Shown one piece after another: positions 1,242 to 48,692 of a DNA stretch of 49,017 bases. The first letter of the stretch is position 1; each line of letters opens with the position of its first letter. This stretch comes from Spirochaetota bacterium (GTDB lineage: Bacteria; Spirochaetota; UBA4802; UB4802). Both the position numbers and the translations under genes were made by a program. The stretch is from assembly GCA_029907515.1 (NCBI GenBank), contig JARYLT010000012.1, positions 1 through 49,017 of the forward strand. The letters run 5' to 3'. Below the pieces are notes generated by a model that was not told the DNA's origin, made no database searches, and worked only from the letters and a program-made list of their open reading frames with translations.

Positions 1242-1819
1242 AAACTCATGGTATATATTGTATAATATGGCTGTTGATTGCAGTCATACTGGTATTACAA
1301 AGCCCTCTTCAAGCGCAAACAAAGAAAAAAGAAGCTCCTTCTCAGGAACTATCGCTAACTGATGATGAAATCAAGGTGCTTTTTGAAAAAAAGAAGGACC
1401 CCCTTTTTGCCGGTATTCTTTCTTTTTATATGCCAGGCCTTGGCCAATTTTATAGTGACGAAAAATTAAAAGGTGCTCTTTTCCTGGTTACTGAATATAC
1501 CATAGTGATAGGATCACTTTTTTATTTTCTTGATTTTAATTTTAAAGCTGGAAGTGATTCCGGTTTTAATTTAGGAATTGATGCAAAGCGTACTGATTTA
1601 GGTGTCATCAGCACTCAGCGAAAATATCTGTTTTATGCTACAGTTGCCACACTATCACTAATTCATATTTATAACATAATTGATGCAGTTCAAAGCGCCG
1701 GTTCCTTTAACACTTCGTTACAGGAAAAACGACAGGAATTGATAAAAAAGTATCCACAACTTAACTTTGGATATAATGGTGATGGAGGTATGTATTTTGG
1801 GTTATCGTCTTGTTTCTAA
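1238..1819 (+). CDS. Exported membrane protein, DUF5683-like (paralogue 1)
   Basis: Function unknown. The 193-residue protein has an N-terminal hydrophobic signal segment (about 8-26) ending in LQAQ, then a charged linker. A conserved core DPLFAGILSFYMPGLGQFY (about 53-71) follows, with two further hydrophobic segments and an IDAVQSA motif near the end. This layout resembles the DUF5683 family of small membrane proteins. The next gene encodes a clear paralogue with the same core (DPFIAGVLS...GLGQFY and IDAVDSA). The start overlaps ptsH by ATGA. Family naming is from memory of the motif and is moderately secure; the paralogy is seen directly. Confidence 0.7.
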   Translation: MKTHGIYCIIWLLIAVILVLQSPLQAQTKKKEAPSQELSLTDDEIKVLFEKKKDPLFAGILSFYMPGLGQFYSDEKLKGALFLVTEYTIVIGSLFYFLDFNFKAGSDSGFNLGIDAKRTDLGVISTQRKYLFYATVATLSLIHIYNIIDAVQSAGSFNTSLQEKRQELIKKYPQLNFGYNGDGGMYFGLSSCF

Positions 1820-2360
1820 GATAAGTTTGGTTGCAATTATCATACTATCTTTGTTTTCAATTGCATTTGCCCAGAAGGATAAACAAATACAGCAAAATAA
1901 AGAATCTGCTGTGCAAAGTAATGGTACTCCTATAATCTTTGAAGAGCCTGAGCGAAAGGATCCATTCATAGCGGGTGTGCTGTCGTGGTCATGGAGCGGG
2001 TTGGGACAGTTCTATACTCAGAATTATAAAAAGGGCTCAGCCTTTCTGCTTGCTGACCTGGCTGAAAAGGGAGTGCTTGTATATATGTTATTTCATATTT
2101 CTGAAAAGTATTCCAGCAGTGATCAGGATGTAAACTGGAGTGATATCAGCAAAAAAGACCAGACTGTTGTTGTGGGGCTCCTTTTTTCAATTTTTATTAC
2201 AAGGGTGTTTTCTGTTATTGATGCTGTTGATTCAGCTCATGACTATAACAGATTGATTTATTATCCATACTGGAAAAGCAAACAGGGATTTAAAACTTCA
2301 TTTGAGCCTGAAAATAAATCACTACATATAAGTGTATCGTATCCAGTGAATTTTAAATGA
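1797..2360 (+). CDS. Exported membrane protein, DUF5683-like (paralogue 2)
   Basis: Function unknown; tandem paralogue of the preceding gene. The open frame extends up to 1767, but I choose the TTG at 1797. It sits 8 bases after a perfect GGAGG (1784-1788) and gives a normal signal peptide ending in AFAQ. ATG codons at 1776 and 1782 lack this spacing. With the TTG start the gene overlaps its neighbour by 23 bases. Mature features are the core RKDPFIAGVLS...GLGQFYTQ, three hydrophobic stretches and IDAVDSAHDYN. The end overlaps the DUF4390 gene by ATGA. Both paralogues probably sit in the inner membrane facing the periplasm. Confidence 0.7.
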   Translation: MGYRLVSKISLVAIIILSLFSIAFAQKDKQIQQNKESAVQSNGTPIIFEEPERKDPFIAGVLSWSWSGLGQFYTQNYKKGSAFLLADLAEKGVLVYMLFHISEKYSSSDQDVNWSDISKKDQTVVVGLLFSIFITRVFSVIDAVDSAHDYNRLIYYPYWKSKQGFKTSFEPENKSLHISVSYPVNFK

Positions 2361-2914
2361 AAAAATTAATTATAACTATATTATTGTTATTATATTCTAT
2401 CACTGTTTTTGCACAGGATATTATTTTTGGGAAAGTTAATTTTAATTCCAATAATCTCAATGTGTTTTTTTCGGTTACTGATATTAAAACCAATGATATT
2501 GTTGAGGCATTAAAACGCGGGCTTGAAGGCCAGGTAGAATATACAGTCCAGATTGTTGAAGACCCTTTATTACCGCTGATGCCAAAAGAAATTATCAAAT
2601 CCATTACAGTGAAGAAAAAAGTAAAATTTGATTTTTTTAATAAGTCCTACATAGTTATACAGGCAAAAGTTCCAATTTCCTTTTACAGTGATGAATCGCT
2701 TATTGATGAGCTCTTTTTTAACAGGCAGATAGTTATTGAAGATGGTTTTAAATACAGGAAATCAAATTATTTAATACGTGTCCGAGTTACCTTCACTTCA
2801 GTTAAGTTATATTTCCCATTGAATATTATATTTAATTATGTTGTTGGCATCTGGGATTTTGATACTGGATGGCAATATGGGCCAAAACTGGTTGGAATAC
2901 CTTACTCTGAATAA
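2357..2914 (+). CDS. Exported DUF4390 protein
   Basis: A 185-residue protein with a signal peptide (MKKLIITILLLLYSITVFAQ, predicted cleavage at or just before Q20) and a mostly beta-strand mature part. The pattern of a short basic/hydrophobic middle, the stretch EALKRGLEGQVEYTVQI and a C-terminal GPKLVG fits DUF4390. In other bacteria DUF4390 genes are commonly found directly upstream of NtrY/NtrX-like two-component genes, and the same order is seen here. It could serve as a periplasmic partner of the sensor kinase, but no experimental role is known to me. The start overlaps the previous stop by ATGA. Confidence 0.75.
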   Translation: MKKLIITILLLLYSITVFAQDIIFGKVNFNSNNLNVFFSVTDIKTNDIVEALKRGLEGQVEYTVQIVEDPLLPLMPKEIIKSITVKKKVKFDFFNKSYIVIQAKVPISFYSDESLIDELFFNRQIVIEDGFKYRKSNYLIRVRVTFTSVKLYFPLNIIFNYVVGIWDFDTGWQYGPKLVGIPYSE

Positions 2915-3047
2915 TATACTATGATAGCAATTATTCCTGAAAAATATGGTATGAATAAAAAAGCAGTACTCCCGCACCGCCAAAGATGGGCAGAGTGTGC
3001 ATTAATATTTTGTTTGTAATTTATATTAAGGAATAATTTGTGATACC

Positions 3048-4826
3048 ATGATGTCATTTCCCATAAAAGATTATTTAAAAGAATATGTATCAAAGAAAAA
3101 TATTAAAAATTCACTGATTTTTATTGGCGCATTTTTTATATTTGCAACTATCATTGCTTTTCTTTTGCCTCCCCAGAGTGAAAATACTTCAGTTGGTGAA
3201 GGTTTTTTTGTAAATCTTGTCATGATTGTACCACTGGCTGCTGCAGTATTTTTTATATTAATATCATTTCGTTTGAGGGTTCATCCTGAAGTTATTTACA
3301 GCAGCAGTATAAGGACAAAGATAGCATTAGCTCTCATAGTTATTGCTACCGTTCCAACTATTCCTATTATAGTCATTACCAGTAATATTTTAAATTCAAC
3401 TATTAATCAGTTTTTTACTGAAAAAACCATTTCTGCGCTGGAAAAATCTGTTGACCTTGCAAATCAAATGGTTCTTGAAGCAGAAGAAAATCTGGTGCAG
3501 CAGTTGAATCAATTGAGATATGATTTAAACAATCATTATGTAAGTACAGAATATCTATTACATCCTGCTTTCAGCCAGCGATATAGGTATGCAAAAACAT
3601 CGTTGATTGTGACACTTGTTGAAACAAAAGGTGTACTGCAAAATAATGTTACATTGCTGCATGCTGGGAACAATAATCCAGATATTGTATCTAATATTGT
3701 TACCTTTCTGCAACTTGCACATATTGCTAATATTACTCATTGCAGCAGATTATCTATATTTAATAACATCTACTCTGTTGCTTATACACAATATGGTCCG
3801 TACTGTATTGTAATGTACAGATTAATTCCAAAAGATATGTTTGCAACTGCTGATTTTTTAAATACCGCATACAGTGAATATAAGAAGCAGGAATTTCTTA
3901 AACCGTATTTTCAGACTGGTATTGGCATAGCGTTAATTTTACTTTCACTGGGTATTATTTTACTTGCTATCATCCTGAGCATCATGATATCGCAAAGTAT
4001 AACACGGCCAGTGCTTGAACTGGTTGAAGCTTCTGAAAAGATTGCAAAAGGTGATTTCCAGATAAATCTTTCCAGAAAAGAACAGGATGAGATAGCTGCT
4101 TTATATGAATCATTTAACCAGATGGCCAAACAGCTTGATCATGGCAGAAAAATGATGTACCAGACACAGAAGTTACAGGCGTGGAGTGATATAGCAAGGA
4201 AATTAATACATGAGATAAAAAACCCTTTAACACCTATTCGTCTGTCGGCAGAAAGGCTTTACCGAAGGTATGAGGAAAATCACCCTGATTTCCCTGTTAT
4301 TGTCAAAGATGCTACCAGTACAATAATTGAAGAAGTAAACCTCTTAATGAACATGCTTTCTGAATTTTCTAAATTTGCACGATTGCCTGAAATAAAAATT
4401 AAGCAGGAAAATATTAATACTATTATTGAAAATTGTGTTGCCATCTATAAGGGGAATGATGCTATAACATTCAAGCTTGATTTAAATTATTCCATACCTG
4501 AAATTATGTGTGACAAAACTCTGTTGCGGCAGGCTTTGTTAAATATTATTCAGAATGCAATAGATGCCAGGTCAACAACTATAACCATTTCTACAATATA
4601 CAATGATGGAACCAGGACAGTTAATATTATAATTAAGGATAATGGGATAGGAATGAGTAATGAAACAGTCAGCAAGGTCTTTGAACCAACATTTTCAACC
4701 AAAGAAAGCGGTATGGGTCTTGGGCTGGCTATTGTTGAAAAAATTATTATTGACCATAAATGGAATATAACCTGTGATTCAAAAGGAGATGGTACACAAT
4801 TTACGATTACTATACCTTCACAATAA
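3048..4826 (+). CDS. NtrY-like membrane sensor histidine kinase
   Basis: Sensor of a two-component system; the adjacent gene is its predicted response regulator. Order in 592 residues: hydrophobic segments at about 21-40, 53-73 and 89-110, a sensory region of about 175 residues (112-285), a membrane segment at 288-313, a HAMP linker (314-365), HisKA with phosphoacceptor H388 in LIHEIKNPLTP, then the ATPase domain with N503 (NIIQNAIDA), DNGIG at 531 and GMGLGL at 555. The topology (several N-terminal membrane helices before a HAMP) matches NtrY rather than NtrB. An AAGGA lies about 16 bases upstream, so the start may be weak; ATG 3048 or 3051 could be used. The ligand is unknown. Confidence 0.9.
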   Translation: MMSFPIKDYLKEYVSKKNIKNSLIFIGAFFIFATIIAFLLPPQSENTSVGEGFFVNLVMIVPLAAAVFFILISFRLRVHPEVIYSSSIRTKIALALIVIATVPTIPIIVITSNILNSTINQFFTEKTISALEKSVDLANQMVLEAEENLVQQLNQLRYDLNNHYVSTEYLLHPAFSQRYRYAKTSLIVTLVETKGVLQNNVTLLHAGNNNPDIVSNIVTFLQLAHIANITHCSRLSIFNNIYSVAYTQYGPYCIVMYRLIPKDMFATADFLNTAYSEYKKQEFLKPYFQTGIGIALILLSLGIILLAIILSIMISQSITRPVLELVEASEKIAKGDFQINLSRKEQDEIAALYESFNQMAKQLDHGRKMMYQTQKLQAWSDIARKLIHEIKNPLTPIRLSAERLYRRYEENHPDFPVIVKDATSTIIEEVNLLMNMLSEFSKFARLPEIKIKQENINTIIENCVAIYKGNDAITFKLDLNYSIPEIMCDKTLLRQALLNIIQNAIDARSTTITISTIYNDGTRTVNIIIKDNGIGMSNETVSKVFEPTFSTKESGMGLGLAIVEKIIIDHKWNITCDSKGDGTQFTITIPSQ

Positions 4827-4888: not shown

Positions 4889-6244
4889 ATGGCAAAGATA
4901 CTTGTTGTTGATGATGAAAAAAACATTTTAAATACCATGAAAGCCATTTTGCAGGATGAAGGCCATACTGTATATACTGTTGAAAATGGCAATGATGCAG
5001 TACAATTTATTAAATCAAATGAATGTGATGTTGTATTCTTAGATGTATGGCTTCCTGACATTGATGGATTGGAAGTACTGCAACGTATTAAGCAAATAAA
5101 GCAGGATGTGGCTGTTATCATGATTTCGGGGCACGGGTCAATTGATATAGCAGTAAAGTCAACACGGTTTGGTGCCTACGATTTTCTGGAAAAACCACCT
5201 TCAATGGAGCGGGTGATAACATCATTAAAGAATGCGCTGGAACAGATTGAATTAAAAAGAGAGAATATTCTATTAAAGAAAAATATTACGTTAGAAGATG
5301 AAATGATTGGCAACTCGCCTCCAATGCAGGAGGTTAAGCGGATTATTGATACAGCTGCATCAACCAATGCAAGAGTTTTTATAACCGGTGAAAATGGAAC
5401 AGGCAAGGAACTGGTTGCACGAGCTATTTATCGAAAATCTAAACGCAGTGATAAGCCTTTTATAAAAGTCAACTGTGCAGCAATACCCGATGAGCTTATT
5501 GAAAGTGAGTTATTTGGACATGAAAAAGGCTCGTTTACAGGAGCTGTCGCCCGCCGCTTGGGAAAATTTGAGTTAGCAGATAAAGGAACAATATTTCTGG
5601 ATGAGATATGTGATATGAGTCCCAGCGCACAGGCCAAGGTGCTGCGTGTATTGCAGGAACAGCAGTTTGAGCGTGTGGGTGGCAATGAAGTCATTACAGT
5701 TGATGTGCGTGTTATTGCTGCAACCAATGTGGATGTAAAAGAGGCCATTGAACAGGGACGCTTCCGTGAAGACCTTTACTATCGCCTCAATGTTATCCCC
5801 ATTTATGTACCGCCTCTTTCAGAACGTCGTGAAGATATACCATTACTGGTTGATTACTTTCTGGAAAAATTTGCGCGCGAGCATGGCCTTGGTGTTAAAC
5901 AAATGAACGACAGTGCCATGGAATTTCTGGTTAATTATTCGTGGCCAGGTAATGTCAGGGAACTTAAGAATGTCATTGAACGGCTTACCATTATGGTGCC
6001 ATCAGAAGTTATACAGGTACAGGATGTTACCAAACATATTGAGTCCTATGATTATGAAGATACAATTGCCAAAGAAACATCCAGTTTGAAAAAAGCACGT
6101 GAACAGTTTGAAAAAGATTATATTATCAAAGCATTGAAACAGTATGATAAAAATATTTCAGCCACTGCCAAAGCGTTGGGAATTGAGCGCACCAATTTGC
6201 ACAGAAAGATCCGGCAATATCATATTAATATTGACAGGTTATAG
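4889..6244 (+). CDS. NtrX/NtrC-like sigma-54 response regulator
   Basis: Transcription activator in three domains: a receiver with D52 (VVFLDVWLPD) and the acidic pair in VVDDE; an AAA+ domain with Walker A GENGTGKE and the sigma-54 contact loop GSFTGA (a serine variant of GAFTGA); and a C-terminal Fis-type helix-turn-helix ending ALGIERTNLHRKIRQY. The 451 residues are the normal length. GAGGT precedes the start. It lies 62 bases downstream of the histidine kinase and is almost certainly its partner. No confident -24/-12 promoter was found in this window, so its targets lie elsewhere or were missed. Confidence 0.93.
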   Translation: MAKILVVDDEKNILNTMKAILQDEGHTVYTVENGNDAVQFIKSNECDVVFLDVWLPDIDGLEVLQRIKQIKQDVAVIMISGHGSIDIAVKSTRFGAYDFLEKPPSMERVITSLKNALEQIELKRENILLKKNITLEDEMIGNSPPMQEVKRIIDTAASTNARVFITGENGTGKELVARAIYRKSKRSDKPFIKVNCAAIPDELIESELFGHEKGSFTGAVARRLGKFELADKGTIFLDEICDMSPSAQAKVLRVLQEQQFERVGGNEVITVDVRVIAATNVDVKEAIEQGRFREDLYYRLNVIPIYVPPLSERREDIPLLVDYFLEKFAREHGLGVKQMNDSAMEFLVNYSWPGNVRELKNVIERLTIMVPSEVIQVQDVTKHIESYDYEDTIAKETSSLKKAREQFEKDYIIKALKQYDKNISATAKALGIERTNLHRKIRQYHINIDRL

Positions 6245-6929: not shown

Positions 6930-8867
6930 ATGTTTGTAGATGTTGCTGTAGGATTCCCTGTTGATGGATTTTTTACATACAGCACTGATGATACTAGAAT
7001 AACAAAAGGGATGCGGGTTGTTGTCAATTTCAACAATCGTAAAACAACTGGTTATGTTGTTCATGTCCATGACGACCCCCCAAATTTTGACGTGAAGCCT
7101 GTCATAAAGGTACTTGATACACAGCCTATCTTTGATGATCGTTTGCTCACGCTGGCCCAGTTTATTTCAAGCCATTATGTATGCTATTTTGGTGAGGCAC
7201 TGGGTACTGCGTTGCCTTCGGGAAAATCGTATAACATACGCACAAAGCCATTTACTTTTGGCGATAGCGCTAAAGAGGTAATCCTCACTGAAGAGCAGGA
7301 ACAAATATATAGGGCTATTATGAACCAGCCACAGAAGGTGCATTGCATTTATGGTATAACCGGCAGCGGGAAGACCGAGGTGTACATTGCTCTGGCAAAG
7401 AAGATGATACAGCAGGGAAAAGCTGTTTTGTATTTGGTGCCTGAGATTTCTATTTCCTCACAGATGTTTGAGCGCCTTAAAGCTGTGTTTGGTCAGACAT
7501 TGGTGATGTACCATAGCGGAATGAATCCAAACCAGCGGCTTGTAAGCTGGAAGCGCTTTTATACTGGCCAGGCAATGATTGCTGTTGGCACACGCTCTGC
7601 AATCTTTATGCAGGCTCCTAATTTAGGTCTTATTATTATAGATGAGGAGCATGACAGTTCATATAAAGAAAACAGCACGCCGCGCTACCATGCACGCACG
7701 GTTGCCTGGTACAGGCACCGGCAGGAAGGTGCAATGCTGGTATTGGGTTCAGCAACACCATCACTTGAAACACTGTATGCAATACAGCGTACCAGTATTG
7801 TGCAGCACCAGTTGAACAAACGTTTTGGAACTGCAAAGCTTCCTGAACTGGAGATAGTAACTGTAAAGGCATCAAATCCACGCACTATATTTTCGAATAC
7901 ATTGCTGTTTTCAATTAAAAAGGCAATTGAGGCTAGAGAGCAGGTCATACTGCTTTTAAACAGACGAGGTTTTGCTCCGGTGATGTTGTGTCAGGATTGT
8001 GGTACAGCTGTGCAGTGCCCTCATTGCAGTATTAGTCTTACACATCATAAACAAAAATTGCTATGCCACTACTGCCACTATGAAGCTGTTGTGCCAGAAC
8101 ACTGTAGTAACTGCGGTTCAAAACATCTGGTTATGGTGGGCAGTGGTACACAGCGTGTTGAGGAAGTTTTGCAAAAAATGTTTCCTGCAGCAACGGTAGT
8201 GCGGCTTGACCAGGATTCAGCACGCAGAAAAAATTTCCTTCCTGCTGTTGTCAATGATATGATGAATGGCAACATTGACATTCTTTTAGGAACACAGATG
8301 GTGGCAAAGGGATTTGATTTTCCCAATGTATCGCTGGTTGGTGTTATGTTAGCAGATATTGGGCTTTTACTTCCTGATTTCAGGGCAGTAGAGCGCACCT
8401 TTGCATTGTTAGTACAGGTAGCAGGCAGATCAGGGCGAGGTGAGGTTGGTGGGAAGGTGATTGTGCAAACAATCAATCCGGATAATCCCATATTTCATTT
8501 TTTAAAAAATCACGATTATATGGGCTTCTGCCAGAAAGAGCTATCAATACGAAAAGCATTGAACTATCCACCCTATGTTCGCCTGGCACGTCTTGTGGTC
8601 AGAGGTGCAAAGGAGGACATTGTGGCAACCGTTGCCGGTCAGTGCAGGGATATATTACAGGAACTATCGCCACAATTTCCTGACATAACAATACTTGGGC
8701 CATCCCAGGCACCATTGCATAAAATAGCATCACAGTACCGGTATCATATTGTGTTAAAATCAAACAATGTTGAAAAGCTAAGTGGCATACTGGCGCAGTG
8801 TAAAAAGAAGGTCAACCTGCAGGGAACATATTTAGAGATAGATATTGACCCATTGGATCTTTTGTGA
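6930..8867 (+). CDS. priA: Primosomal protein N' (replication restart helicase)
   Basis: Superfamily-2 3'-5' helicase that reloads the replicative helicase at stalled forks. In 645 residues I see an N-terminal DNA-binding domain (VDVAVGFPVDGFFTYS), Walker A GITGSGKTE, a DEEH box (IIDEEHDSSYK), and a zinc-binding block with paired cysteines (CQDC, CPHC, CHYC, CSNC). After it come helicase motifs V and VI (LLGTQMVAKGFDF and QVAGRSGRG). It is somewhat shorter than the roughly 730-residue E. coli protein. It follows the UDG-like gene after two bases. The end converges on a minus-strand gene. Confidence 0.96.
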   Translation: MFVDVAVGFPVDGFFTYSTDDTRITKGMRVVVNFNNRKTTGYVVHVHDDPPNFDVKPVIKVLDTQPIFDDRLLTLAQFISSHYVCYFGEALGTALPSGKSYNIRTKPFTFGDSAKEVILTEEQEQIYRAIMNQPQKVHCIYGITGSGKTEVYIALAKKMIQQGKAVLYLVPEISISSQMFERLKAVFGQTLVMYHSGMNPNQRLVSWKRFYTGQAMIAVGTRSAIFMQAPNLGLIIIDEEHDSSYKENSTPRYHARTVAWYRHRQEGAMLVLGSATPSLETLYAIQRTSIVQHQLNKRFGTAKLPELEIVTVKASNPRTIFSNTLLFSIKKAIEAREQVILLLNRRGFAPVMLCQDCGTAVQCPHCSISLTHHKQKLLCHYCHYEAVVPEHCSNCGSKHLVMVGSGTQRVEEVLQKMFPAATVVRLDQDSARRKNFLPAVVNDMMNGNIDILLGTQMVAKGFDFPNVSLVGVMLADIGLLLPDFRAVERTFALLVQVAGRSGRGEVGGKVIVQTINPDNPIFHFLKNHDYMGFCQKELSIRKALNYPPYVRLARLVVRGAKEDIVATVAGQCRDILQELSPQFPDITILGPSQAPLHKIASQYRYHIVLKSNNVEKLSGILAQCKKKVNLQGTYLEIDIDPLDLL

Positions 8868-9752: not shown

Positions 9753-11769
9753 TTGCTACTTTACGATTTAGACGTATTTCTTCATTGGTTGGGTCAAGCT
9801 CTGAAGCTTTAGTTAAGAACTGCAGCGATTTTTTGTATTCGCGTTTAGCGTAGTAGCAACGTCCAATATTATGATATGCCTGTGCGGTAATGCTATCCTC
9901 ACTGGAAGATTCAAGTACCTGATAAAAAATCTCCAGTGCCTTGTCATATTTATGCTGGTTGTATGCAATAGTGCCCATTGCCAGAAGCGCTTCGGGTTCA
10001 TTGGGTGAAATAAGCAATGCCTTCTGAAGAGACTGTACAGCCTGTGCCTGCTGTTTTTCATCCTTTGAACCAGATAGTATAATGCCAATATTTACATAAG
10101 CTTTTTTTGCATATTCATTGTTGCCATTTATTGCAATTACTCTGTTGAATGCCTCCAGTGCATAATCATTTCTTCCTTTATTGAAATAGAGCATACCAAG
10201 TGTAAACTGGGCTTCCTGCAAATTGGGCCACAGCCGCACCACTTTTATGTATTCATCCAGCGCTAAGTCCAGATACCCTTTTTCATAATACAGGTCAGCA
10301 ATGGCAAGCCGTGGTTTGGGATTGTCGGGATTATACTGTGCAGCGTCGTTAAATGCTGCAACGGCAAGCTCAGGTTTTCCAGCATGTTTGTAGGCAATCC
10401 CTAAGTTATACAGGGTGGAGCTGTCCTTAGGATCTATTGCAAGTGCCTTTTTATAAAAGCTAACTGCTTCTTCATACCGGTGCTGATCATCACGGATATT
10501 GCCCATATTGGCATAAGCCACACGGGCATTTTCCGAAACAGGCTCATACACGGTAATCTGCTTGTAATATTCAAACGCAGTATCTAAATCACCTTTACGG
10601 TAATATAATTCTGCTAATCGTGCAATGATGGCAACATTCCTGTTTTGCACTGGCTGCAGGCGTTCAAGCACCGCAATACTTTCATCATACCGTTCAAGTG
10701 ATGCATAAGCCTCTGAAAGCCCTTCTAAAAGTTTTTCTTCATTTGCACCAGATGATTCAGCTGCCTTGAATTCAGCCAGTGCCTTTTCATACTGCTGGCG
10801 CTGCATATACACTATACCCAAATTATAGTGATTAACTGGCTCATTGGGGTCAAGCTGTATGGCCATGGTCAGGTATTTTTCAGCCATTGCATAGTCACGC
10901 CTGCCTGTATAAAATGCACCTAAACGGCCATAGGCTAATTTTGCAATAGTTCCTGATGCATCAGCAGATGCAGCCTTTTTAAAGTATTCCACTGCTGATA
11001 ATTCGTCACCGGTTTTCAGGAATGTTAGTGCTGTGTTGTAAAGGGCTTGTGGGTTGTTGGGTGCAATGTCCAGTGCTTTTGTGTAGCTTTTAATGGCATC
11101 GGGAAACCTGCCCATATCATAGAGTATATTTCCTTTAAGTATCAGTAAATCAGGATTGTTTTCATCAATGTCAATGGCTTTTTCAATGGTAGCCAGTGCA
11201 TTGGGATAGTCTTTTTTGTGTCTGTAGGCAAGTGCTAAATTTTTTAAAATAGTGCTGTCTTTGTGTTTATATTTTAATGCTCGCAGGAATGTTTCAATGG
11301 CTTTAGTATAGTCGCCTCTGTCATCGTAGATCATGCCAATATAGGTAAGGGCAATAGCCTTATCGCTGTCAGGTGCATCGGATGCAACCACCTCATTAAA
11401 TTCATCAATGGCACTGGTATAATTCTTTTTAAAATAATATGTTTTGCCACGCAGTATGCGCGGGTTTTGCGATAGATCCTCCGGGATAAGCTTCTGGTCG
11501 CTTAAGCCTGGTAACAGTGTATTGTCCTGTGCAATGGTTTGCTTTTGATCAAGGAATGATGAAGGTTTTTTTATGACAGTTACTATCGCCACAACAAGTA
11601 CAACAAAAAGAATAAGGAACAATGCTGTAATTAAGGGATGATATTTTTTTGGAATTGATATGGCAAAACTTTTTTTAACGGGTTCTTCATTGTCTATAGA
11701 AAAGATGCGCATGCCTTCCGGTTTTTCTTCTGGAATGATTGTGAACCTGTGTTTTTTTATAGGAGGCAT
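9718..11769 (-). CDS. Membrane-anchored TPR repeat protein
   Basis: A 683-residue protein with a basic cytosolic N-terminus, one transmembrane helix (about 44-66, ALFLILFVVLVVAIVTVI) and then roughly sixteen 34-residue tetratricopeptide repeats. Recognisable repeat signatures include YNLGIVYMQRQQYEKALAEF and ALYNTALTFLKTGD. TPR arrays are protein-binding scaffolds; which partner it holds is unknown. GAGGTG lies a few bases before the ATG. It starts 3 bases after nusB ends, so it belongs to the ribH-nusB operon. Its 3' end is duplicated in tandem downstream. Confidence 0.88.
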   Translation of the reverse strand: MPPIKKHRFTIIPEEKPEGMRIFSIDNEEPVKKSFAISIPKKYHPLITALFLILFVVLVVAIVTVIKKPSSFLDQKQTIAQDNTLLPGLSDQKLIPEDLSQNPRILRGKTYYFKKNYTSAIDEFNEVVASDAPDSDKAIALTYIGMIYDDRGDYTKAIETFLRALKYKHKDSTILKNLALAYRHKKDYPNALATIEKAIDIDENNPDLLILKGNILYDMGRFPDAIKSYTKALDIAPNNPQALYNTALTFLKTGDELSAVEYFKKAASADASGTIAKLAYGRLGAFYTGRRDYAMAEKYLTMAIQLDPNEPVNHYNLGIVYMQRQQYEKALAEFKAAESSGANEEKLLEGLSEAYASLERYDESIAVLERLQPVQNRNVAIIARLAELYYRKGDLDTAFEYYKQITVYEPVSENARVAYANMGNIRDDQHRYEEAVSFYKKALAIDPKDSSTLYNLGIAYKHAGKPELAVAAFNDAAQYNPDNPKPRLAIADLYYEKGYLDLALDEYIKVVRLWPNLQEAQFTLGMLYFNKGRNDYALEAFNRVIAINGNNEYAKKAYVNIGIILSGSKDEKQQAQAVQSLQKALLISPNEPEALLAMGTIAYNQHKYDKALEIFYQVLESSSEDSITAQAYHNIGRCYYAKREYKKSLQFLTKASELDPTNEEIRLNRKVAMEAYEKELSLK

Positions 11770-11772
11770 GTT

Positions 11773-12650: not shown

Positions 12651-12691
12651 AGTTAACCTGCTTATATAATAAATTTTAATTTGGTCTAAAG

Positions 12692-12720: not shown

Positions 12721-12758
12721 AGTTTGTTTCAATATATTCTATTCCGTCAAGTTATTTT

Positions 12759-17137: not shown

Positions 17138-17197
17138 AATAAAGATGAAATCCCATAGCTCCTTTGCTTGTATTATCGGAACTATCGGACATAAAAA

Positions 17198-21857: not shown

Positions 21858-22055
21858 GCACGTTCTATTTGGTGGCTCTACAGTTTAAAGTCAATCATAT
21901 CAATAATATGTGCAAATATAGCTATACGTAGCTATACGTACCATGAGTAAGCCAGGCAAAAGTTTTTTCATAAGTAACTATCTCCGCTTTATAAGTGTTA
22001 CAGCTGGTATAGTGGATATACTGGCATTAAAAAATCAATGTTTTTTCTACTACAA

Positions 22056-34860: not shown

Positions 34861-35583
34861 CTATTCTTTTAAAAGTTCCCACAACACAATGCCACAGGCA
34901 ACCGATGCATTGAGCGATGATACCTTTCCTTTAAGCGGAATGCGTACAATTACATCGCACAAACTTTGTGTTAGATGGCGCATGCCGCTTCCCTCACTGC
35001 CAATGACTACAACTGCAGGTTTATAGGTAGCAATAGTAGTGATTGGTTGAGTGCCTCTATCGCTGGTTCCAATTACCCAGAATCCTGCCTTTTTAGCATC
35101 ATCTAAGAATCGTGCCAGGTTAGGTACCTGCAAAACAGGGATATGAGCAGTAGCGCCCGCTGACGCTTTAATGATGGTTGGTGTAATCTCAGGTGCATGT
35201 GCTTTCGTAACAACTACTGCACTGCCACCTAGGGCCTCGGTGGTTCGGATGATGGAGCCAATGTTGTGTGGATCGGTTATCTCATCACAGGCCACAATAA
35301 CACCATGACTGGAAGCAATTTTTTTTAACTCACATTGTTTTTCTTCATTTTTGGGGCGATAGTTCATAACAAGAGCTACACCCTGATGATGGGCAGCACA
35401 GTGTGAATCAAACCAGCTTTTGTTTACTTTCTGTACAGGGATATGTTTACTGTGGGCCGCAGCAATAATAACATCGATGATTTTCCCGTGTGCAGATTCG
35501 GATACATACAGTGTTGCATCCCCTTGAAGGGTGGCAAGGTATTCAAGCACTACCTTGCGGCCAACTACGATTTGCGTATCCAC
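34861..35583 (-). CDS. rlmB: 23S rRNA 2'-O-ribose methyltransferase, SpoU/RlmB family
   Basis: SPOUT-class tRNA/rRNA methyltransferase; 240 residues. Motif 1 is DPHNIGSIIRTTEALG, motif 2 is VIGSEGSGMRHL and motif 3 is IPLKGKVSSLNASVACGIVL, forming the knotted SAM site. The N-terminal L30e-like domain (VVGRKVVLEYL) fits RlmB. The start is a GTG that overlaps the cysS 3' end by 19 bases and has AAGG upstream. The target nucleotide is inferred from family (RlmB modifies G2251 in E. coli); other SpoU substrates are possible. Confidence 0.88.
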   Translation of the reverse strand: MDTQIVVGRKVVLEYLATLQGDATLYVSESAHGKIIDVIIAAAHSKHIPVQKVNKSWFDSHCAAHHQGVALVMNYRPKNEEKQCELKKIASSHGVIVACDEITDPHNIGSIIRTTEALGGSAVVVTKAHAPEITPTIIKASAGATAHIPVLQVPNLARFLDDAKKAGFWVIGTSDRGTQPITTIATYKPAVVVIGSEGSGMRHLTQSLCDVIVRIPLKGKVSSLNASVACGIVLWELLKE

Positions 35584-39918: not shown

Positions 39919-41235
39919 ATGAATCCACATGAAGACATCAAGGCCATGTATTCAAAGGCTATTGAGGCAGCCAGTCCCTATGGTGCTGTACGTTCGTCGT
40001 TGATACGGGAAGGCAATGCGTTGCGTTTAAAGGATGGCAGTGTGTTTGATCTTTCAGCTTTCAAGCATATTTATGTGGTTGGGGCTGGGAAAGCAACTGC
40101 ACCCATGGCAAAGGCAGTTGAGGATATTCTGGGCGATAGTATATCAGAAGGGGTGATTGCTGTAAAATATGGTTATCGTGAAAAGCTTTCCCATATTACC
40201 CTGCGTGAAGCAGCTCATCCAGTGCCCGATGAAAACGGACTAAAAGCATCTCAGGAGATCATTGATCTGCTTGGAAAAGCAGGGGAAGATGACCTGGTAA
40301 TATCATGCATTTCAGGTGGAGGATCGGCACTGTTGCCGTATCCGGTAAAACCAATTACACTGGCCGAAAAGCAGGATTTAACTCAAAAGCTATTAAAAAG
40401 TGGGGCTTCAATTAAGGAATTAAATATTGTTCGTAAACACCTATCACGAACAAAAGGTGGCAACCTGGCGCTTGCAGCATATCCTGCCACAGTTATTAAT
40501 CTCATGATGTCGGATGTAGTGGGTGATGATATGGACATTATTGCATCGGGTCCATTTGTGCCTGATGAAAGTACCTATTCAGAAGCTCTGTCAATATTAC
40601 AGCGGTATAAGCTGGAAAAAACGGTTGCTCCATCAATAATCCATCATCTTGAAAAAGGTGTAAATGGTGAGGTTCCTGAAACTCCCAAAGATAAACATAT
40701 CTTTGAAAAAGTGCACAATAGTATTATTGCTTCAAATATCATTGCATGCATGGCAGCATACAAGAAGGCACGCGATCTGGGATATAATTCACTGATTTTG
40801 TCATCAATGATTGAAGGCGACACTGCTCAGGCTGCAAGATTCCATAGTGCCATAGCATATGAAATTCTTAAAAGCGGTAATCCACTCAAAAAGCCTGCAT
40901 GTATCATCAGTGGAGGTGAAACCACCGTGGTGGTTAAAGGTTCAGGACTTGGTGGGCGTAATATGGAGTTTGCACTACAGATAGCCGGGTTAATTGAAGG
41001 AACATCAATCATTGCTGCAAGTGTGGGAACTGACGGTACTGATGGTCCAACTGATGCTGCAGGTGCACTGGCCGATGGTACAACAATAAAAAGAGCACAA
41101 AAACTTGGATTGAATATAGAGGAGTATATCAATAATAGTGATTCGTATCACTTTTTTGAAAAACTTGGTGATTTAATCAAAACAGGTCCCACCAATACCA
41201 ATGTGATGGATTTAAGAATTATTATTGTAGTATAA
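39919..41235 (+). CDS. Glycerate 2-kinase (MOFRL family)
   Basis: ATP-dependent phosphorylation of D-glycerate to 2-phosphoglycerate; 438 residues. HIYVVGAGKATAPMAKAVE, CISGGGSALLPYP, IVRKHLSRTKGGNLA, and GTDGTDGPTDAAGALADG (the MOFRL C-terminal motif) are diagnostic for the GckA/TtuD family. AAGGGA lies before the ATG. Some relatives were earlier labelled hydroxypyruvate reductases; the kinase motif here argues against that. Confidence 0.9.
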   Translation: MNPHEDIKAMYSKAIEAASPYGAVRSSLIREGNALRLKDGSVFDLSAFKHIYVVGAGKATAPMAKAVEDILGDSISEGVIAVKYGYREKLSHITLREAAHPVPDENGLKASQEIIDLLGKAGEDDLVISCISGGGSALLPYPVKPITLAEKQDLTQKLLKSGASIKELNIVRKHLSRTKGGNLALAAYPATVINLMMSDVVGDDMDIIASGPFVPDESTYSEALSILQRYKLEKTVAPSIIHHLEKGVNGEVPETPKDKHIFEKVHNSIIASNIIACMAAYKKARDLGYNSLILSSMIEGDTAQAARFHSAIAYEILKSGNPLKKPACIISGGETTVVVKGSGLGGRNMEFALQIAGLIEGTSIIAASVGTDGTDGPTDAAGALADGTTIKRAQKLGLNIEEYINNSDSYHFFEKLGDLIKTGPTNTNVMDLRIIIVV

Positions 41236-42156: not shown

Positions 42157-42197
42157 CATAATACTATCTTTTTTTTAAGAGAGTGGTACACTATATA

Positions 42198-43550
42198 ATG
42201 GCAAACGTTGATTGCTTACAAAAAATTGTAGTATTTCTTGTGGTAATTACTATTACTATCTTTTCATTTAAAATTCCCATAACCAGATTGGAATTCCCGC
42301 TATATCGTGTTGTGCTTGATCCTGGACATGGTGGCAAGGCAACCATACCAAAGGATGAGTACGGTGATAGGTTTGACGTGCTTTCCATGAAATACCTGGA
42401 TGTATATCGTGAAGGAGCGTCGTATAAGAATTATCATGAGCATATTTATACCTTTGAAGTTGCTAAGCGTGTTGAGACACTTTTACAGTTACTATCGCCC
42501 AATGGTAATTTTGAAAAATTTTATACAATACTGCAAAAATATACTGATAAGCCTGTCAAAAGGATATATATACAGACATTCATGAGCAGGGGCCCATCAT
42601 TAAATTCACACCTTATCCATAAAGAACCTAACGCACCATACAGGTTATTTGATTTTATAAGCAATGATGGTACACTTAAAGAAGGCAGAATAAGCTACAT
42701 TAATAGCCTTAAGCCGCATCTGGTGGTTTCAATACATTTTGCTTTGAATTCGTCACCATACTTTCGTGGTATGAATGCAGTCATTGCAGCACCATACAGT
42801 ATTTTATATAAGGGATTGCAGTATTTTCAGGGTACTATCCCTGATAGGTCTTTCTTTTATACCAGTAAATATGCTGACTGGTTTACTGAAGATGAACGTA
42901 AGTCAGGGTTTTTCTGGTATTCCAATGATGTTGTTATGTATTTCACGGGCTATCGGATAAAGAATGATTATAGCATTGACACTGATGCATTCAGAGGCTA
43001 CAGGTATAATATGGTTCAGTGGGCTTATAATGACCCACCTGGCTGGGCACATATTGCAAAGCATCATCCGCCCAACACACCGTATGCAAACAATATACAA
43101 CAGTTTATTCCTCAAAATGCCTTTTTTACCCGTGAACAAAGCAAATATGAACAGTATCGCCGTGACGGAGGATTTGAAGGTTATGGTGGTGACAACCTCT
43201 ATGCATCAAATGAGATTATACGATTTGTGCTGTATAATCTTTATTCAAAGGGCATACGGCATAAAGATCAGCGGCTTGCTCCACCGTATATATCAATATG
43301 GTCAGTACCACTGCATATCAATGCCATTAATGCATTTATTGAGTTTGGATACTTAGCCCGTCCATATACCCGAACTATTATCAATAATCATCTGGATGAT
43401 GTTGCGGAGGGAATTGCTGTTGGCATATATTCACTTTTTGCTGGTGTAGAAGTTACCAAAAAGTATCCCTACACACCGTATGGAAAAAAGATTGACCTTG
43501 AAAAGTATAAAATTGATAACGATAATGACTATTTTACAATAGTGCGATAG
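42198..43550 (+). CDS. N-acetylmuramoyl-L-alanine amidase (Amidase_3) with large insertions
   Basis: Peptidoglycan amidase of the AmiC fold, about 450 residues. N-terminal membrane anchor or signal (10-27), VVLDPGHGG with the first zinc His, the acidic residue in YHEHIYTFEVAKRV, SIHFALN with the second zinc His, and the C-terminal AFIEFGYL Glu. The distances from the first His to SIH (about 130) and from SIH to the Glu (about 200) exceed the usual ones, so two insertions are present. The start is unclear: ATG 42198 or GTG 42183. Followed 31 bases later by the HtrA gene. Confidence 0.85.
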   Translation: MANVDCLQKIVVFLVVITITIFSFKIPITRLEFPLYRVVLDPGHGGKATIPKDEYGDRFDVLSMKYLDVYREGASYKNYHEHIYTFEVAKRVETLLQLLSPNGNFEKFYTILQKYTDKPVKRIYIQTFMSRGPSLNSHLIHKEPNAPYRLFDFISNDGTLKEGRISYINSLKPHLVVSIHFALNSSPYFRGMNAVIAAPYSILYKGLQYFQGTIPDRSFFYTSKYADWFTEDERKSGFFWYSNDVVMYFTGYRIKNDYSIDTDAFRGYRYNMVQWAYNDPPGWAHIAKHHPPNTPYANNIQQFIPQNAFFTREQSKYEQYRRDGGFEGYGGDNLYASNEIIRFVLYNLYSKGIRHKDQRLAPPYISIWSVPLHINAINAFIEFGYLARPYTRTIINNHLDDVAEGIAVGIYSLFAGVEVTKKYPYTPYGKKIDLEKYKIDNDNDYFTIVR

Positions 43551-43581
43551 TTCATAGTAGTATGTCTTCTGGAGAGAAAGT

Positions 43582-44852: not shown

Positions 44853-45287
44853 ATGAAGTGGATATATAGTACCATTTTATTTTTATTCTGTGCGATAGTA
44901 ACTGTACATGTAACTGCTGATGAAGCAAAAGAAGTTATACTTGACACTCAATGGTATACTTCTTTACAAAATAGTGATGCAATCAAACGATTACAGATGC
45001 TTGACGCATTGAAGGATAAAGTGGTTAAAGCTCAGGGCCAGGTTATCAAAGTAGAAGAATCTAATCTTTTAAAAAAGAAATATCGAATTATCCTGTCTGT
45101 CAATCTTCCAAAGATAAAGATACTGTATTATTGCTATACCGACAAAGAAGATTATTCAGATCTTTTGCAGCCACAGGATACCTTTGAATTCAGTGGCCAG
45201 TTTGTTGTTGCAACACCACTCAATACTCGAATAGATGCCATACTATGTGATATTATTCTGGAAGATGGTGCTGTAGTAGTAAAATAG
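44853..45287 (+). CDS. Small exported protein, unknown function
   Basis: A 144-residue protein with a signal peptide (MKWIYSTILFLFCAIVTVHVTAD, cleavage near residue 22) and a beta-rich, possibly OB-like, mature part (KAQGQVIKVEESNLLKKKYRI, FEFSGQFVVATPLN). Translationally linked to the HtrA gene (two-base gap), so it may be a partner or chaperone of the protease. Not recognised. Confidence 0.65.
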   Translation: MKWIYSTILFLFCAIVTVHVTADEAKEVILDTQWYTSLQNSDAIKRLQMLDALKDKVVKAQGQVIKVEESNLLKKKYRIILSVNLPKIKILYYCYTDKEDYSDLLQPQDTFEFSGQFVVATPLNTRIDAILCDIILEDGAVVVK

Positions 45288-46558: not shown

Positions 46559-46981
46559 ATGGCCGGTGATTTAAACAAGGTTATACTGGTAGGAAGAGTT
46601 GTCAGGGATCCTGAGTTGCGATACACTCCGGGTGGGTCAGCTGTTGTTTCCTTTTCAGTGGCCAATAACAGGATTTACGTAAAGAATAACGAAAAGCAGG
46701 AAGTTGTTTCGTTCTTTAATTGCGTTGCATGGGGCAAGTTGGCTGAAACTGTTGCCAATTACTGTAAAAAGGGGCAGCAACTGGCATTGGAAGGAAGACT
46801 GCAGCAGCGTTCCTGGCAGGATAAAGAAGGCAACAAACGTTCAACGGTGGAAATAGTTGCTGAATCGTTACAGTTTTTGGGTGGCCGACAGCAGGCTGAT
46901 TCACAGGTTACTATCGAACAAGATGAGCCCGTTGATATAAATAGCGATCAGCCATTTGCTGATGATGAGATACCATTCTAA
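46559..46981 (+). CDS. ssb: Single-stranded DNA-binding protein
   Basis: 140 residues from ATG 46559 (GTG at 46550 is a possible alternative overlapping the rpsF stop). OB-fold signature NKVILVGRVVRDPELRYTP, FFNCVAWGKLAETVANY, GQQLALEGRLQQRSW, and an acidic tip DDEIPF that recruits partner proteins. Position between rpsF and rpsR matches the widespread order. Confidence 0.96.
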   Translation: MAGDLNKVILVGRVVRDPELRYTPGGSAVVSFSVANNRIYVKNNEKQEVVSFFNCVAWGKLAETVANYCKKGQQLALEGRLQQRSWQDKEGNKRSTVEIVAESLQFLGGRQQADSQVTIEQDEPVDINSDQPFADDEIPF

Positions 46982-47012: not shown

Positions 47013-47360
47013 ATGAGTGAAGAAATTAAACATGATGAAACTATAGAGGCGCAGGACAATGTTAATCCTCAGGAAGTTAAACCGGAAGCGGTAGCTCCTG
47101 AGGAAGATGATAAGGTGCTGGCAACAGCTGTTCAGGTACAGCGAATACCTAAATTTAAGAAAAAAGTATGTCGTTTCTGCGAAGATCCAAACTTAGCTAT
47201 TGATTACAAAAATCCGGATTTGCTGGTCAGGTTTATTACCGATAGAGGTAAGATACTCCCACGGCGGATTACGGGAACCTGTGCAAAACATCAGCGCCAT
47301 TTAGCGCGTGCTATTAAGCGTGCTCGTATTATCGCATTGTTGCCGTTTGTTGTAAAATAA
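47013..47360 (+). CDS. rpsR: 30S ribosomal protein S18 with acidic N-terminal extension
   Basis: 115 residues, against about 75-80 in most bacteria. The core [25 protein letters not shown]... with CxxC and the later CAKHQRHL (zinc-binding, C+ type) starts near residue 51. The first 35 residues are acidic ([16 protein letters not shown]...EEDDK). RBS AAGGAG at about 46999. The core identification is certain; the role of the extension is unknown. Confidence 0.94.
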
Positions 47361-47377
47361 TTTTTTAACGTGACATT

Positions 47378-48226
47378 GTGGAACTGCTGCTTCATTTTAT
47401 ACTTGGTATAGCTTTAAGCGTAGTTATAGCTATGCTGGTGTATAAACTGCAATCACAATGGGGTGCGATAGCTCTTATCATTATTGCAACAGCCAGCTAT
47501 ATAGGTCTATCGTACCTTGTAAATGAAATGATCGGTATACAATTTATTATTGCTGGTGCAATTTTTGGGTATACAGCACAACGGTTTTCATTTCAGAAAT
47601 ATTTTATGACAAGTGTGCTGGTATTGTGGTTTTCGCTTCTTGTTGTCTACTATTTGCAGTATTATCTTAAAGGTGTTGATGTAGTTGCAGACAACCACGC
47701 AATGATACAGCAGATGATTGAAGGATCATCGTTAGATGCTGCAGAAAAGTCGGTTATGATGCAGCAACTTGAAAACTTTATGCCAACAATGCGCATACTT
47801 ATGCCATTTTCGTATTTTTTCAGTTCAATTGTTATTTCGCTTTTTATATATGTTCTTGTGTATGCCTTTTTTATACGGTTTAAATTTTTAACAAATGCTA
47901 ACAGCACGTTTGCTTTATTTCGTATTAATGAGTGGACTGTTTTTTTGCTCATTGCAAGCTGGGCAACAGTGCTTCTAAGCAGCAATGATCATATAGTATG
48001 GGCAATAGCTCTTAATGTGGGTCTTATTTTGTGTGTGGTGTACACCATTCAGGGATTGTCCATCGTAAGTTTCTATTTTGAGAAAAAGCAATGGCCTAAA
48101 CTTTACGGTATAGTGCTGTTATTTGTTGGCATGCTGTTGGGGTTTCAGGTGCTCTTTTTTATCATAACGATGCTTATGGGTTTGGGCATCATTGATTTCT
48201 GGATGAATTTTAGAAAGATTGTTTAA
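47378..48226 (+). CDS. DUF2232 membrane protein
   Basis: A 282-residue multi-helix membrane protein (about 7-8 segments) with a GTG start, located between rpsR and rplI, which is where DUF2232 (YybS-like) genes are commonly found. The function is unknown. A hydrophilic loop (about 100-135, ADNHAMIQQMIEGSSLDAAE) separates two helix groups. The family name rests on position and topology, so moderately secure. Confidence 0.75.
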   Translation: MELLLHFILGIALSVVIAMLVYKLQSQWGAIALIIIATASYIGLSYLVNEMIGIQFIIAGAIFGYTAQRFSFQKYFMTSVLVLWFSLLVVYYLQYYLKGVDVVADNHAMIQQMIEGSSLDAAEKSVMMQQLENFMPTMRILMPFSYFFSSIVISLFIYVLVYAFFIRFKFLTNANSTFALFRINEWTVFLLIASWATVLLSSNDHIVWAIALNVGLILCVVYTIQGLSIVSFYFEKKQWPKLYGIVLLFVGMLLGFQVLFFIITMLMGLGIIDFWMNFRKIV

Positions 48227-48248
48227 TTTTTTTCAAAGGAGTTTGACT

Positions 48249-48692
48249 ATGAAGGTCATATTACAGAAGGATATTTCAAATTTAGGTGAAGCAGGTGATG
48301 TAAAAGAGGTTGCAGAAGGATATGCACGCAACTACCTTTTGCCCAAGAAACTTGTCATCCCTTATAATGAATCAAGTGCAAAAGCAATAGAACATCAGAA
48401 GAAGCTTGTAAAAATAAAGAAGGAAAAACGCAAAAAAGAAGGGCAGAAACTTGTAGAAGCATTATCCAATGTTGCCCTGACAATTGGTGCACAGGTTGGC
48501 GAAGAGGATAAGCTGTTTGGTTCAGTTACTGCAATTGATATAGCACAAAAGCTATCGCACATGGGATACTCAATTGATAAACGAAAAATAGTATTGCCTG
48601 AGCCAATAAAGAAGGCAGGGGAACATGAAGTAAAGATTAAATTGGATGAAGGGCTGTCTGCAACCATTAAGGTTACTGTGGTGAAGGAGTAA
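48249..48692 (+). CDS. rplI: 50S ribosomal protein L9
   Basis: 147 residues from ATG 48249, 6 bases or so after AAAGGAG; the frame opens at 48219. MKVILQKDISNLGEAGDVKEV is truncated here to its key part: the N-terminal domain has VILQKDISNLGEAGDV and EVAEGYARNYLLPKKL, then the connecting helix and the C-terminal domain (SVTAIDIAQKL...). Normal length. Confidence 0.95.
   Translation: MKVILQKDISNLGEAGDVKEVAEGYARNYLLPKKLVIPYNESSAKAIEHQKKLVKIKKEKRKKEGQKLVEALSNVALTIGAQVGEEDKLFGSVTAIDIAQKLSHMGYSIDKRKIVLPEPIKKAGEHEVKIKLDEGLSATIKVTVVKE

Follow-up and report, generated by a model that had tools for sequence, protein, structure and literature searches.

The locus raises the question of why one short word, GCGATAG, recurs on both strands of the window (the whole stretch of DNA analysed, 49,017 nucleotides), and which machinery might read it.

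An over-represented octamer is the core of a graded element

Exact counting on both strands of the window gave 30 copies of GCGATAG, 20 of GCGATAGT, 13 of GGCGATAGT and 7 of GCGATAGC, and every count and coordinate that the initial annotation had listed for these words was exact. Its claim of over-representation is real and was understated: from base composition 1.2 copies of GCGATAGT are expected by chance in the window, and 100 dinucleotide shuffles gave a mean of 0.53 and a maximum of 3. The excess also stood in the whole-genome count that had been suggested as a check, with 1151 copies of GCGATAGT in the 3.49 Mb genome compared to 83 of the reversed control word. The Markov part of this check was performed on a 0.62 Mb sample, in which 234 copies were found and 12.3 were expected from a third-order model.

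The octamer GCGATAGT belongs, as the core, to a longer element of ~20 bp, tkGGCGATAGTTMCTGnnAAA, which is soft and not palindromic. The core is graded and the flanks are AT-rich, being T/A-rich upstream and A-rich at +15 to +17, which corresponds to an A-tract past two uninformative positions. The element holds 16.8 bits over ~20 positions, is gapped, and is not a short exact word as Chi requires. No conserved flanks were found around it past ~20 bp. Counting both strands together, one element occurs per 1.3-1.6 kb. The ~20 bp extent, the graded core and the sharing throughout the genus are points absent from the initial annotation. The sites in the window are listed in Table 1.

Table 1. Motif sites and further GCGATAG cores in the window. 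Cores without a score are not among the sites >9 bits.
Site	Position	Strand	Score (bits)	Remark
13-bp core, exact GCGATAGT	1343..1355	-	22.3	
variant core	2726..2738	+	14.4	
variant core	4089..4101	+	13.7	
variant core	5538..5550	-	17.4	
exact GCGATAGT	5773..5785	-	13.9	
variant core	7851..7863	+	16.9	
exact GCGATAGT	8658..8670	-	25.5	window's strongest
variant core	10943..10955	+	13.7	
exact GCGATAGT	11577..11589	-	24.4	
variant core	13475..13487	-	14.7	
exact GCGATAGT	15595..15607	-	19.7	
variant core	17176..17188	-	19.4	
GCGATAGC	18706..18718	-	13.4	
GCGATAGC	20656..20668	+	18.0	
exact GCGATAGT	21497..21509	+	22.3	
variant core	21972..21984	-	18.1	
exact GCGATAGT	22304..22316	+	23.6	
variant core	22871..22883	+	14.3	
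exact GCGATAGT	23329..23341	-	18.5	
exact GCGATAGT	24615..24627	-	14.8	
exact GCGATAGT	27778..27790	-	17.0	
variant core	30204..30216	-	13.9	
variant core	30338..30350	-	18.7	
variant core	30868..30880	-	15.8	
variant core	31332..31344	+	18.0	
exact GCGATAGT	33996..34008	-	18.8	
exact GCGATAGT	35356..35368	+	21.9	
exact GCGATAGT	38714..38726	-	20.9	
exact GCGATAGT	38775..38787	+	17.7	
GCGATAGC	38910..38922	+	13.6	
exact GCGATAGT	40133..40145	+	15.4	
exact GCGATAGT	42486..42498	-	23.7	
exact GCGATAGT	43544..43556	+	16.5	TAG = stop codon of ORF 42183-43550
exact GCGATAGT	44892..44904	+	21.9	
variant core	46905..46917	-	13.2	
variant core	47088..47100	+	15.0	
GCGATAGC	47465..47477	+	18.6	
variant core	48002..48014	+	15.4	
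GCGATAGC	48546..48558	-	15.4	
GCGATAG core	7261..7267	+	12.8	exact core, weak flanks
GCGATAG core	11469..11475	+	12.6	exact core, weak flanks
GCGATAG core	15281..15287	+		exact core, outside >9-bit list
GCGATAG core	24838..24844	-	10.6	exact core, weak flanks
GCGATAG core	29993..29999	+		exact core, outside >9-bit list
GCGATAG core	35057..35063	-		exact core, outside >9-bit list
GCGATAG core	38618..38624	+	11.2	exact core, weak flanks

The motif had been likened to HIP1, and this comparison did not hold. Cyanobacterial HIP1 (GCGATCGC) has the letters GCGAT in common with the element and is likewise in genome-wide excess within genes, but it is an 8-bp palindrome, whereas the element is not palindromic. 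Moreover, the window contains no copy of GCGATCGC, and the 0.62 Mb sample shows no enrichment of this word (2 copies vs 2.3 expected).

The excess does not follow codon use, gene strand or replication strand

In the window, 30 of 30 GCGATAG and 19 of 20 GCGATAGT copies lie wholly within gene calls. The observation that copies lie almost only inside genes is therefore true here, but it has little meaning, because the window is 92% coding. Across a 1.0 Mb sample a slight non-coding excess was found, with 0.79 sites per kb outside genes vs 0.60 inside. Occurrence on both strands and in more than one reading frame was confirmed. Synonymous-codon shuffling reduced the 518 in-gene sites to 51-73, and the 273 in-gene copies of GCGATAGT to 21-33. 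Codon use is thus rejected as the cause, in agreement with the initial annotation, and the excess survives the codon correction named as a check.

Sites are distributed almost evenly between sense (258) and antisense (271), and no bias by gene strand or by position along the gene was seen in the 1.0 Mb sample, the underlying gene calls being 87% coding. In view of this lack of preference a promoter, terminator or RNA signal was rejected, which bears out the earlier exclusion of a promoter site. No replication-strand bias was detected either: 202 of 404 sites are on the G-rich strand, and 170 of 330 where the skew is >0.05, with replichores inferred solely from the GC skew of contigs. Because this bias is absent, a KOPS-like segregation signal, which had been among the options of the initial annotation, is unlikely and was rejected.

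The element is shared by the genus and has a dialect

Five genomes of the genus (G000-G004) were compared with each other and with further genomes, including G005 of the sister genus, which is 71% complete. When GCGATAGT was compared with the reversed word, all five genus genomes searched showed a 6- to 14-fold excess, while in 74 others it was at most ~3-fold. G004 uses the dialect GGCGATAGC, in which position +7 is C. Among 41 sites kept in both genomes, T at this position in the own genome corresponds to C in G004 in 14 cases, and the opposite direction was found in none; background T-to-C and C-to-T changes are equal (5502 and 5688). The weaker excess of GCGATAGT in G004 had been considered as decay after loss of ComEC, which was rejected, since G004 has its dialect at the same density.

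GCGATAG was kept at 20 of 30 sites in G003, 15 of 27 in G002, 43 of 64 in G004 and 10 of 27 in G001, compared to 39, 21, 16 and 10% of matched words, respectively. Within 30-mers around own sites, the mean identities of core and outer positions were 0.95/0.92 in G003, 0.89/0.83 in G002, 0.87/0.80 in G004 and 0.79/0.73 in G001, and conservation at the level of single sites is modest. In an alignment to G003 that covered ungapped blocks and left out sites at gaps, the partner sequence scores <13 bits at 11 of the 39 own sites and at 8 of the 36 sites of G003; sites are therefore gained and lost by substitution. Judged from these alignments, sites are better preserved than matched words, yet they turn over.

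These comparisons also bear on the idea that the sites are a dispersed small mobile element or repeat. Many dispersed copies exist, as this would predict, but conservation ends at ~20 bp and the sites of relatives differ by substitution in the ungapped blocks, sites at gaps being uncounted. An insertion element is therefore unlikely, and a mobile origin in general is highly improbable.

Sites of the same orientation avoid each other

Sites in the same orientation avoid each other to ~1.3 kb, whereas sites in opposite orientation do not. In the training set, same-orientation pairs <1.3 kb were found at 0.68 of expectation at 13 bits and 0.58 at 16 bits; in the held-out set the effect was weaker (0.78 and 0.84, respectively). 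When orientation was tested per genome, G004 reached significance at each of four thresholds, only just at 15 bits (p 0.0498), and G001 at 11 bits only (63:35), with nothing at 15 (26:26) and 17 bits (18:18). G002 and G003 had the same lean, significant at no threshold. With exact words, the first G000 sample gave 177:109 for GCGATAG, 156:118 for CGATAGT and 173:150 for GATAGTT, the last not being significant. In the first comparison the stretches from G001-G004 partly overlap the window by orthology; in the 241-site set, which is free of these stretches, 131 of 216 neighbours were opposite, compared to a permutation mean of 116, and this value was reached in 96 of 5000 permutations.

Overall spacing is close to random, with near-exponential gaps (CV 0.93) and a variance/mean of 0.92 in 5-kb bins. 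Close inverted pairs are rare: only 9 of 374 neighbouring pairs are <60 bp apart, 8 of them opposite. Neither empty 5-kb bins (5 of 114 vs 4.4 expected) nor gaps >6 kb (six vs 8.2 expected) were commoner than chance. There is therefore no clear avoidance of foreign DNA, which speaks against an uptake signal, and the possibility that mobile DNA is motif-free was rejected overall. One phage-tail region of 10 kb (L113 10000-20000) contains two weak sites only, of 13.0 and 12.0 bits. The motif as a phage signal was likewise rejected, as 21 viral stretches, which were retrieved by an 18-letter pattern, carry 1-2 sites >13 bits each. Orientation had no effect in a rough control on USS, composed of redundant prophage-type contigs chosen for carrying a USS (171 opposite and 193 same; with the shorter core, 180 opposite and 218 same).

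The orientation-dependent spacing rule is new in that it is absent from the descriptions found of USS, DUS or Chi. It is possible, if rather doubtful, that the element represents a novel class of self-DNA marks that are directional and strand-autonomous. Such a polar element of ~20 bp would punctuate each strand separately every ~2.7-2.9 kb and would be read by a translocating machine, for import, end-processing or another process, with a redundancy range of ~1.3 kb.

Two further readings were considered. A site for a one-directional chromosome-organising or DNA-translocating protein (a nucleoid protein, loop extruder or roadblock) would be consistent with the polar rule and the coverage of both strands, and a graded, gapped motif fits a double-strand-binding protein. 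It is nevertheless unlikely, as bias by replication strand, gene strand or place in the gene is lacking and gaps are near-exponential overall. The element could also be a functionless product of motif-specific mutation, repair or methylation, as argued for some cyanobacterial HIP. HIP-type over-representation tied to methyltransferases is described in PMC4390886, and the excess found here is genus-specific. However, the ~20 bp length, gap, grading and AT-flanks do not fit a methylase target, and avoidance between same-orientation sites over a kilobase range would not be expected from context-dependent mutation bias, which leaves this origin improbable.

A Chi-like recombination signal is the main rival

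In a Chi-like system, RecBCD degrading a broken end and reading one strand would switch to repair at a correctly oriented motif. Strand-autonomous reading by RecBCD would account for the redundancy of same-orientation sites alone, and the repulsion to ~1.3 kb is suggestive of such polarity. Chi and the element are both non-palindromic, polar and enriched genome-wide, and RecC, the subunit searched, was identified in 5 of 5 genus genomes; no RecC was detected in G005 of the sister genus, whose genome is incomplete (71%). This looked specific for the genus, but RecC is common in the order (38 of 46 genomes), where 33 genomes outside the genus carry it without motif enrichment. According to PMC5959072, the strand skew of Chi does not reach significance in B. 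subtilis, S. aureus and H. influenzae, and Chi of P. syringae has none; the missing skew of the element is therefore not fatal to a Chi reading. The same source gives the Chi sites of E. coli and P. syringae as octamers found once per ~4.5 and 3 kb, whereas the element is graded over ~20 bp with a spaced A-tract, has about twice this density or more, and shifts its dialect inside one genus. A Chi-like signal is thus considered rather unlikely, although it is the strongest competitor.

A directional uptake signal is the preferred reading

Of the options in the initial annotation, the uptake-sequence type is best supported, by density, graded core and AT flanks, restriction to the genus, dialect, preservation of sites, the slight non-coding excess and the lack of strand bias. 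With a chance just short of even, the sites represent a signal by which the cell recognizes its own DNA, of the DNA-uptake-sequence (USS/DUS) type and read directionally. The literature consulted describes genome signals of the uptake type for Pasteurellaceae and Neisseriaceae. As in USS/DUS genomes, which have about one copy per kb, the excess is strong and genome-wide, here at one per 1.3-1.6 kb, and does not come from codon use; the element is AT-flanked, as in the Pasteurellacean type, and has dialects in related species; the close inverted pairs that also belong to this pattern were few (8 among the 374 neighbours).

Like the element with its core, flanks and A-tract, the Pasteurellacean USS has a core and AT-rich segments (excerpt of PMC1626085). 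The element differs in sequence and phylum, no clear type IV retraction ATPase was found in its genomes, and its close inverted pairs are rare and same-orientation sites repel, whereas USS pairs are described in the same excerpt. Neisserial DUS have dialects, some one base apart (PMC3630211, in the part available), as G004 has compared to the others. However, inverted pairs are common in DUS according to that text and few in the element, and the DUS core is given in the PMC1626085 excerpt as 10 bp without flanking motifs, in contrast to the graded, AT-flanked ~20 bp found here. USS binding is reported as orientation-independent in the portion of PMC1939737 consulted, which counts against a directional uptake reading, as does the lack of an orientation effect in the USS control.

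If the reader is an uptake receptor, it would recognize double-stranded DNA across about two helical turns, first the core GGCGATAGTTMCTG and then the A-tract, and would putatively favour the import of motif-bearing DNA. Recombination of imported DNA would keep and spread sites, which may build up neutrally on both strands wherever proteins tolerate them. A receptor working one way would make a second same-orientation site within ~1.3 kb redundant, and an opposite one not.

Genes for competence and secretion were searched as well. ComEC was matched in 4 of 5 genus genomes; in the fifth, G004, only a 3' tail was found, probably cut at a contig end (contig of 15.4-19.5 kb by rank). The 5 genomes from outside the genus that were tested all have ComEC too and lack the motif. 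Two DprA were identified in G000, the genome searched for them, and a type II secretion (T2SS) locus is present that looks ordinary. For the PilT family, no match above the cut-off was obtained in any of 8 genomes, the single G000 match being within the T2SS ATPase. ComEA-type HHH matches were weak: within the genus G004 alone passes the cut-off, and G003 has none. ComEC and DprA speak for the uptake reading; the PilT and ComEA results, the ordinary T2SS and the ComEC of motif-free genomes speak against it. The apparent case of G001 as a genome with the motif and without T2SS was rejected, since its contig stops <200 bases from the T2SS locus.

In a literature search no report of natural transformation was found for this group, and neither natural transformation nor a Chi-like code for the phylum. 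If the preferred reading or its Chi-like rival is true, a dense, dialect-forming signal in an uncultured spirochaete genus would give a way to test for natural transformation, or for a repair code of the Chi kind, in this phylum. The orientation-dependent spacing is a quantitative handle on polarity that is applicable to any USS, DUS or Chi genome, and it would tell directional from non-directional readers.

A dense polar element in the window and the genome

The initial annotation had reported 30 copies of GCGATAG in the window, with 20 of GCGATAGT, 13 of GGCGATAGT and 7 of GCGATAGC, and a recount gave exactly these numbers. The GC content is 38.9% over 49,017 bases, and in 100 dinucleotide shuffles of the window GCGATAGT occurred 0.53 times on average and three times at most. 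In the whole genome, of which the window is contig C33 (G000; 3.49 Mb, 193 contigs, 98.55% complete), GCGATAGT was counted 579 + 572 times compared with 43 + 40 times for the word read backwards. Therefore, the proposed excess also holds across the genome, where it is ∼14-fold.

Expectation maximization (EM) on 624 kb of G000, seeded with GCGATAG and using a third-order background, yielded ∼489 sites, corresponding to one every 1.27 kb. The element carries 16.8 bits, with almost all information inside ∼20 positions. The element is T-rich upstream, followed by tkGGCGATAGTTMCTG, two uninformative positions and finally an A-tract. The GATAG core is almost invariant, while A is tolerated at +1 and C at +7. 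At 14 bits, 370 sites were found versus 13 in reversed sequences; at 13 bits, 1.005 Mb of G000 contained 632 sites, or one per 1.59 kb. Thirty-nine sites above 13 bits lie in the window (18 on the + and 21 on the - strand).

Placement relative to genes and strands

Sites were placed on 884 genes called in 1.005 Mb of G000 (87% coding), which gave 258 sense, 271 antisense and 87 intergenic sites and 16 at gene edges. As sense and antisense sites were similarly frequent and spread roughly evenly along the genes, a role in gene regulation was rejected. The sense frame that places TAG in frame was almost unused (5 of 258 sense sites). Synonymous shuffling within each gene, performed five times, left 51-73 sites above 13 bits where the real genes had 518 (and not 529, since each gene was scanned by itself); for GCGATAGT, 21-33 copies were left of 273. 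This rules out codon use as the source of the excess, as had been argued from the window. On the G-rich strand 537 of 872 genes were found, so that GC skew marks the strands moderately well, and 202 of 404 sites lie on this strand.

Conservation and dialects in related genomes

In all five genomes of the genus (G000-G004), GCGATAGT was 6- to 14-fold more frequent than the reversed word, whereas in 74 genomes outside the genus the greatest ratio was ∼3-fold; the only one of these with a notable ratio was G072, from another family of the phylum (70 versus 22). The only sister-genus genome (G005, 71% complete) showed no excess (30 versus 46), and EM identified no motif of this kind in it. For Spirochaetota, the phylum to which the genus is assigned, no such motif was found among the papers listed by searches of the open-access literature.

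When re-estimated for G001-G004 individually, the element kept its shape and was about as dense, with one site every 833-1165 bp. In G004 a C is present at +7, giving GGCGATAGCTCCTG, which explains the low GCGATAGT count there. Of the 41 orthologous sites that exceed 13 bits in both G000 and G004, 14 have T in G000 and C in G004 and none shows the opposite pairing, compared to 5502 T-to-C and 5688 C-to-T background differences. In aligned cases GCGATAG was retained more often than CpG-containing words matched for composition: 20/30 versus 39% for G003, 15/27 versus 21% for G002, 43/64 versus 16% for G004 and 10/27 versus 10% for G001. Sites nevertheless turn over: in G001, at 74% identity, just 9 of 27 G000 sites still exceed 13 bits.

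Orientation-dependent spacing

Adjacent sites favored opposite orientations in 1.0 Mb of G000 (371 of 615; permutation mean 318, SD 12, reached in 0 of 5000 permutations). For pairs 30-1300 bp apart, 199 same-orientation (∼271 expected), 155 convergent (∼136) and 156 divergent pairs (∼136) were observed, and the effect died away past ∼1.3-2.5 kb. In 381 kb of G000 outside motif building, 128 neighbors were opposite and 85 same (p = 0.004). Same-orientation pairs there reached 0.78 of the expected number, a weaker effect than the 0.68 of the training part. At 13 bits, opposite:same ratios were 113:63 in G004, 44:31 in G001, 42:36 in G002 and 25:17 in G003, significant only in G004; at ≥15 bits G001 showed no orientation effect. 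For 241 sites of other genomes, picked without reference to the window, 131 of 216 neighbors were opposite (reached in 96 of 5000 permutations). None of 150 control 7-mers had a same/opposite ratio as low as the 0.64 of the motif (controls: mean 1.23, minimum 0.80). A rough control with Pasteurellacean uptake sequences (USS) in 120 prophage-type stretches, a redundant and selected sample, gave no orientation effect (171 opposite, 193 same). Divergent pairs (-+) were over-abundant near 1 kb in samples of G001, G002 and G004 (20 observed, 2.3-fold, 750-1000 bp).

Because same orientations are avoided, each strand behaves as though punctuated independently, and this spacing rule suggests a directionally acting element.

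Other features of the genome

A second enriched dispersed word, GGGGTCAGAGC, was observed in the G000 sample, in which GGGGTCAGAG was counted 34 times over ∼1 Mb; it may represent a mobile element, for instance one of the REP type. GGGTCAGA is enriched in G001 and G005 as well.

Locations of features in the window and in G000 (L, sampled stretch; C, contig)
Feature	Location	Remarks
PurH-type protein	window 31545-32864	AICARFT domain; best protein matches in an unclassified MAG (97%) and Spirochaetia bacterium UBA2205 (91%), followed by MAGs of which most are named Spirochaetes (74-78%)
Motif copy	window 43544-43551	provides TAG stop of ORF 42183-43550
DprA-family gene	C174 13966-14583	
DprA-family gene	C190 280-879	
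CRISPR-like array	L003 (C3) ∼43-1370	18 repeats containing CTGCCCCGCTAATAGGGGATTGCGAC, spacing 73-79 bp
GGGGTCAGAGC examples	L004 2836; L010 90; L100; L102; L243	
Contractile-tail gene cluster	L113 (C150) 10000-20000	tape measure, baseplate, tail fibre; prophage or tail-like particle; no more than two motif sites, both weak (13.0 and 12.0 bits)
Longest motif gap found	C193 38715-53849 (L248 end, L249 1-13849)	15 kb without a site >12 bits; on visual inspection, genes resembling those of a methyltransferase, a flavodoxin and a sigma factor; perhaps acquired recently

Candidate machinery and possible function

RecC was found in all five genus genomes and in 38 of 46 genomes of the order. The element could be a Chi-like recombination signal, with which its polar spacing is compatible since it suits a directional reader, and one objection is removed by the published statement that the strand skew of Chi does not reach significance in several species (PMC5959072); we regard this as rather unlikely.

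Searches detected ComEC in G000-G003, and the G004 gene is probably cut by a contig end, as contig C67 of that genome carries the flank downstream of the gene together with a small part of its 3' end. Two DprA-family genes are present in G000. A type II secretion (T2SS) cluster (PDZ protein, GspD, E, F, G and a further pilin-like protein) was identified in G000 and G002-G004 and probably exists in G001, where the contig stops. ComEA-type matches were weak, and the PilT-family search gave no match above the family cut-off. In Veillonella parvula, the likely DNA uptake machinery is described as part of a T2SS-like locus (PMC5397411).

Motif-free stretches were not more common than chance, which slightly reduces confidence in an uptake signal. 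In contrast to USS and the Neisserial DUS, the spirochaete element rarely forms close inverted pairs, and since its pilus machinery and its role in uptake are also only putative, it is not classed as a member of these families. It resembles Pasteurellacean USS (PMC1626085, PMC7811141 and PMC1939737) in how densely it occurs, in being graded and gapped between AT-rich flanks, in showing no strand bias and in its mild non-coding excess, and its dialects resemble those of Neisserial DUS (PMC3630211). Because these properties fit, a USS/DUS-like DNA uptake signal is, tentatively, the most likely reading of the element.
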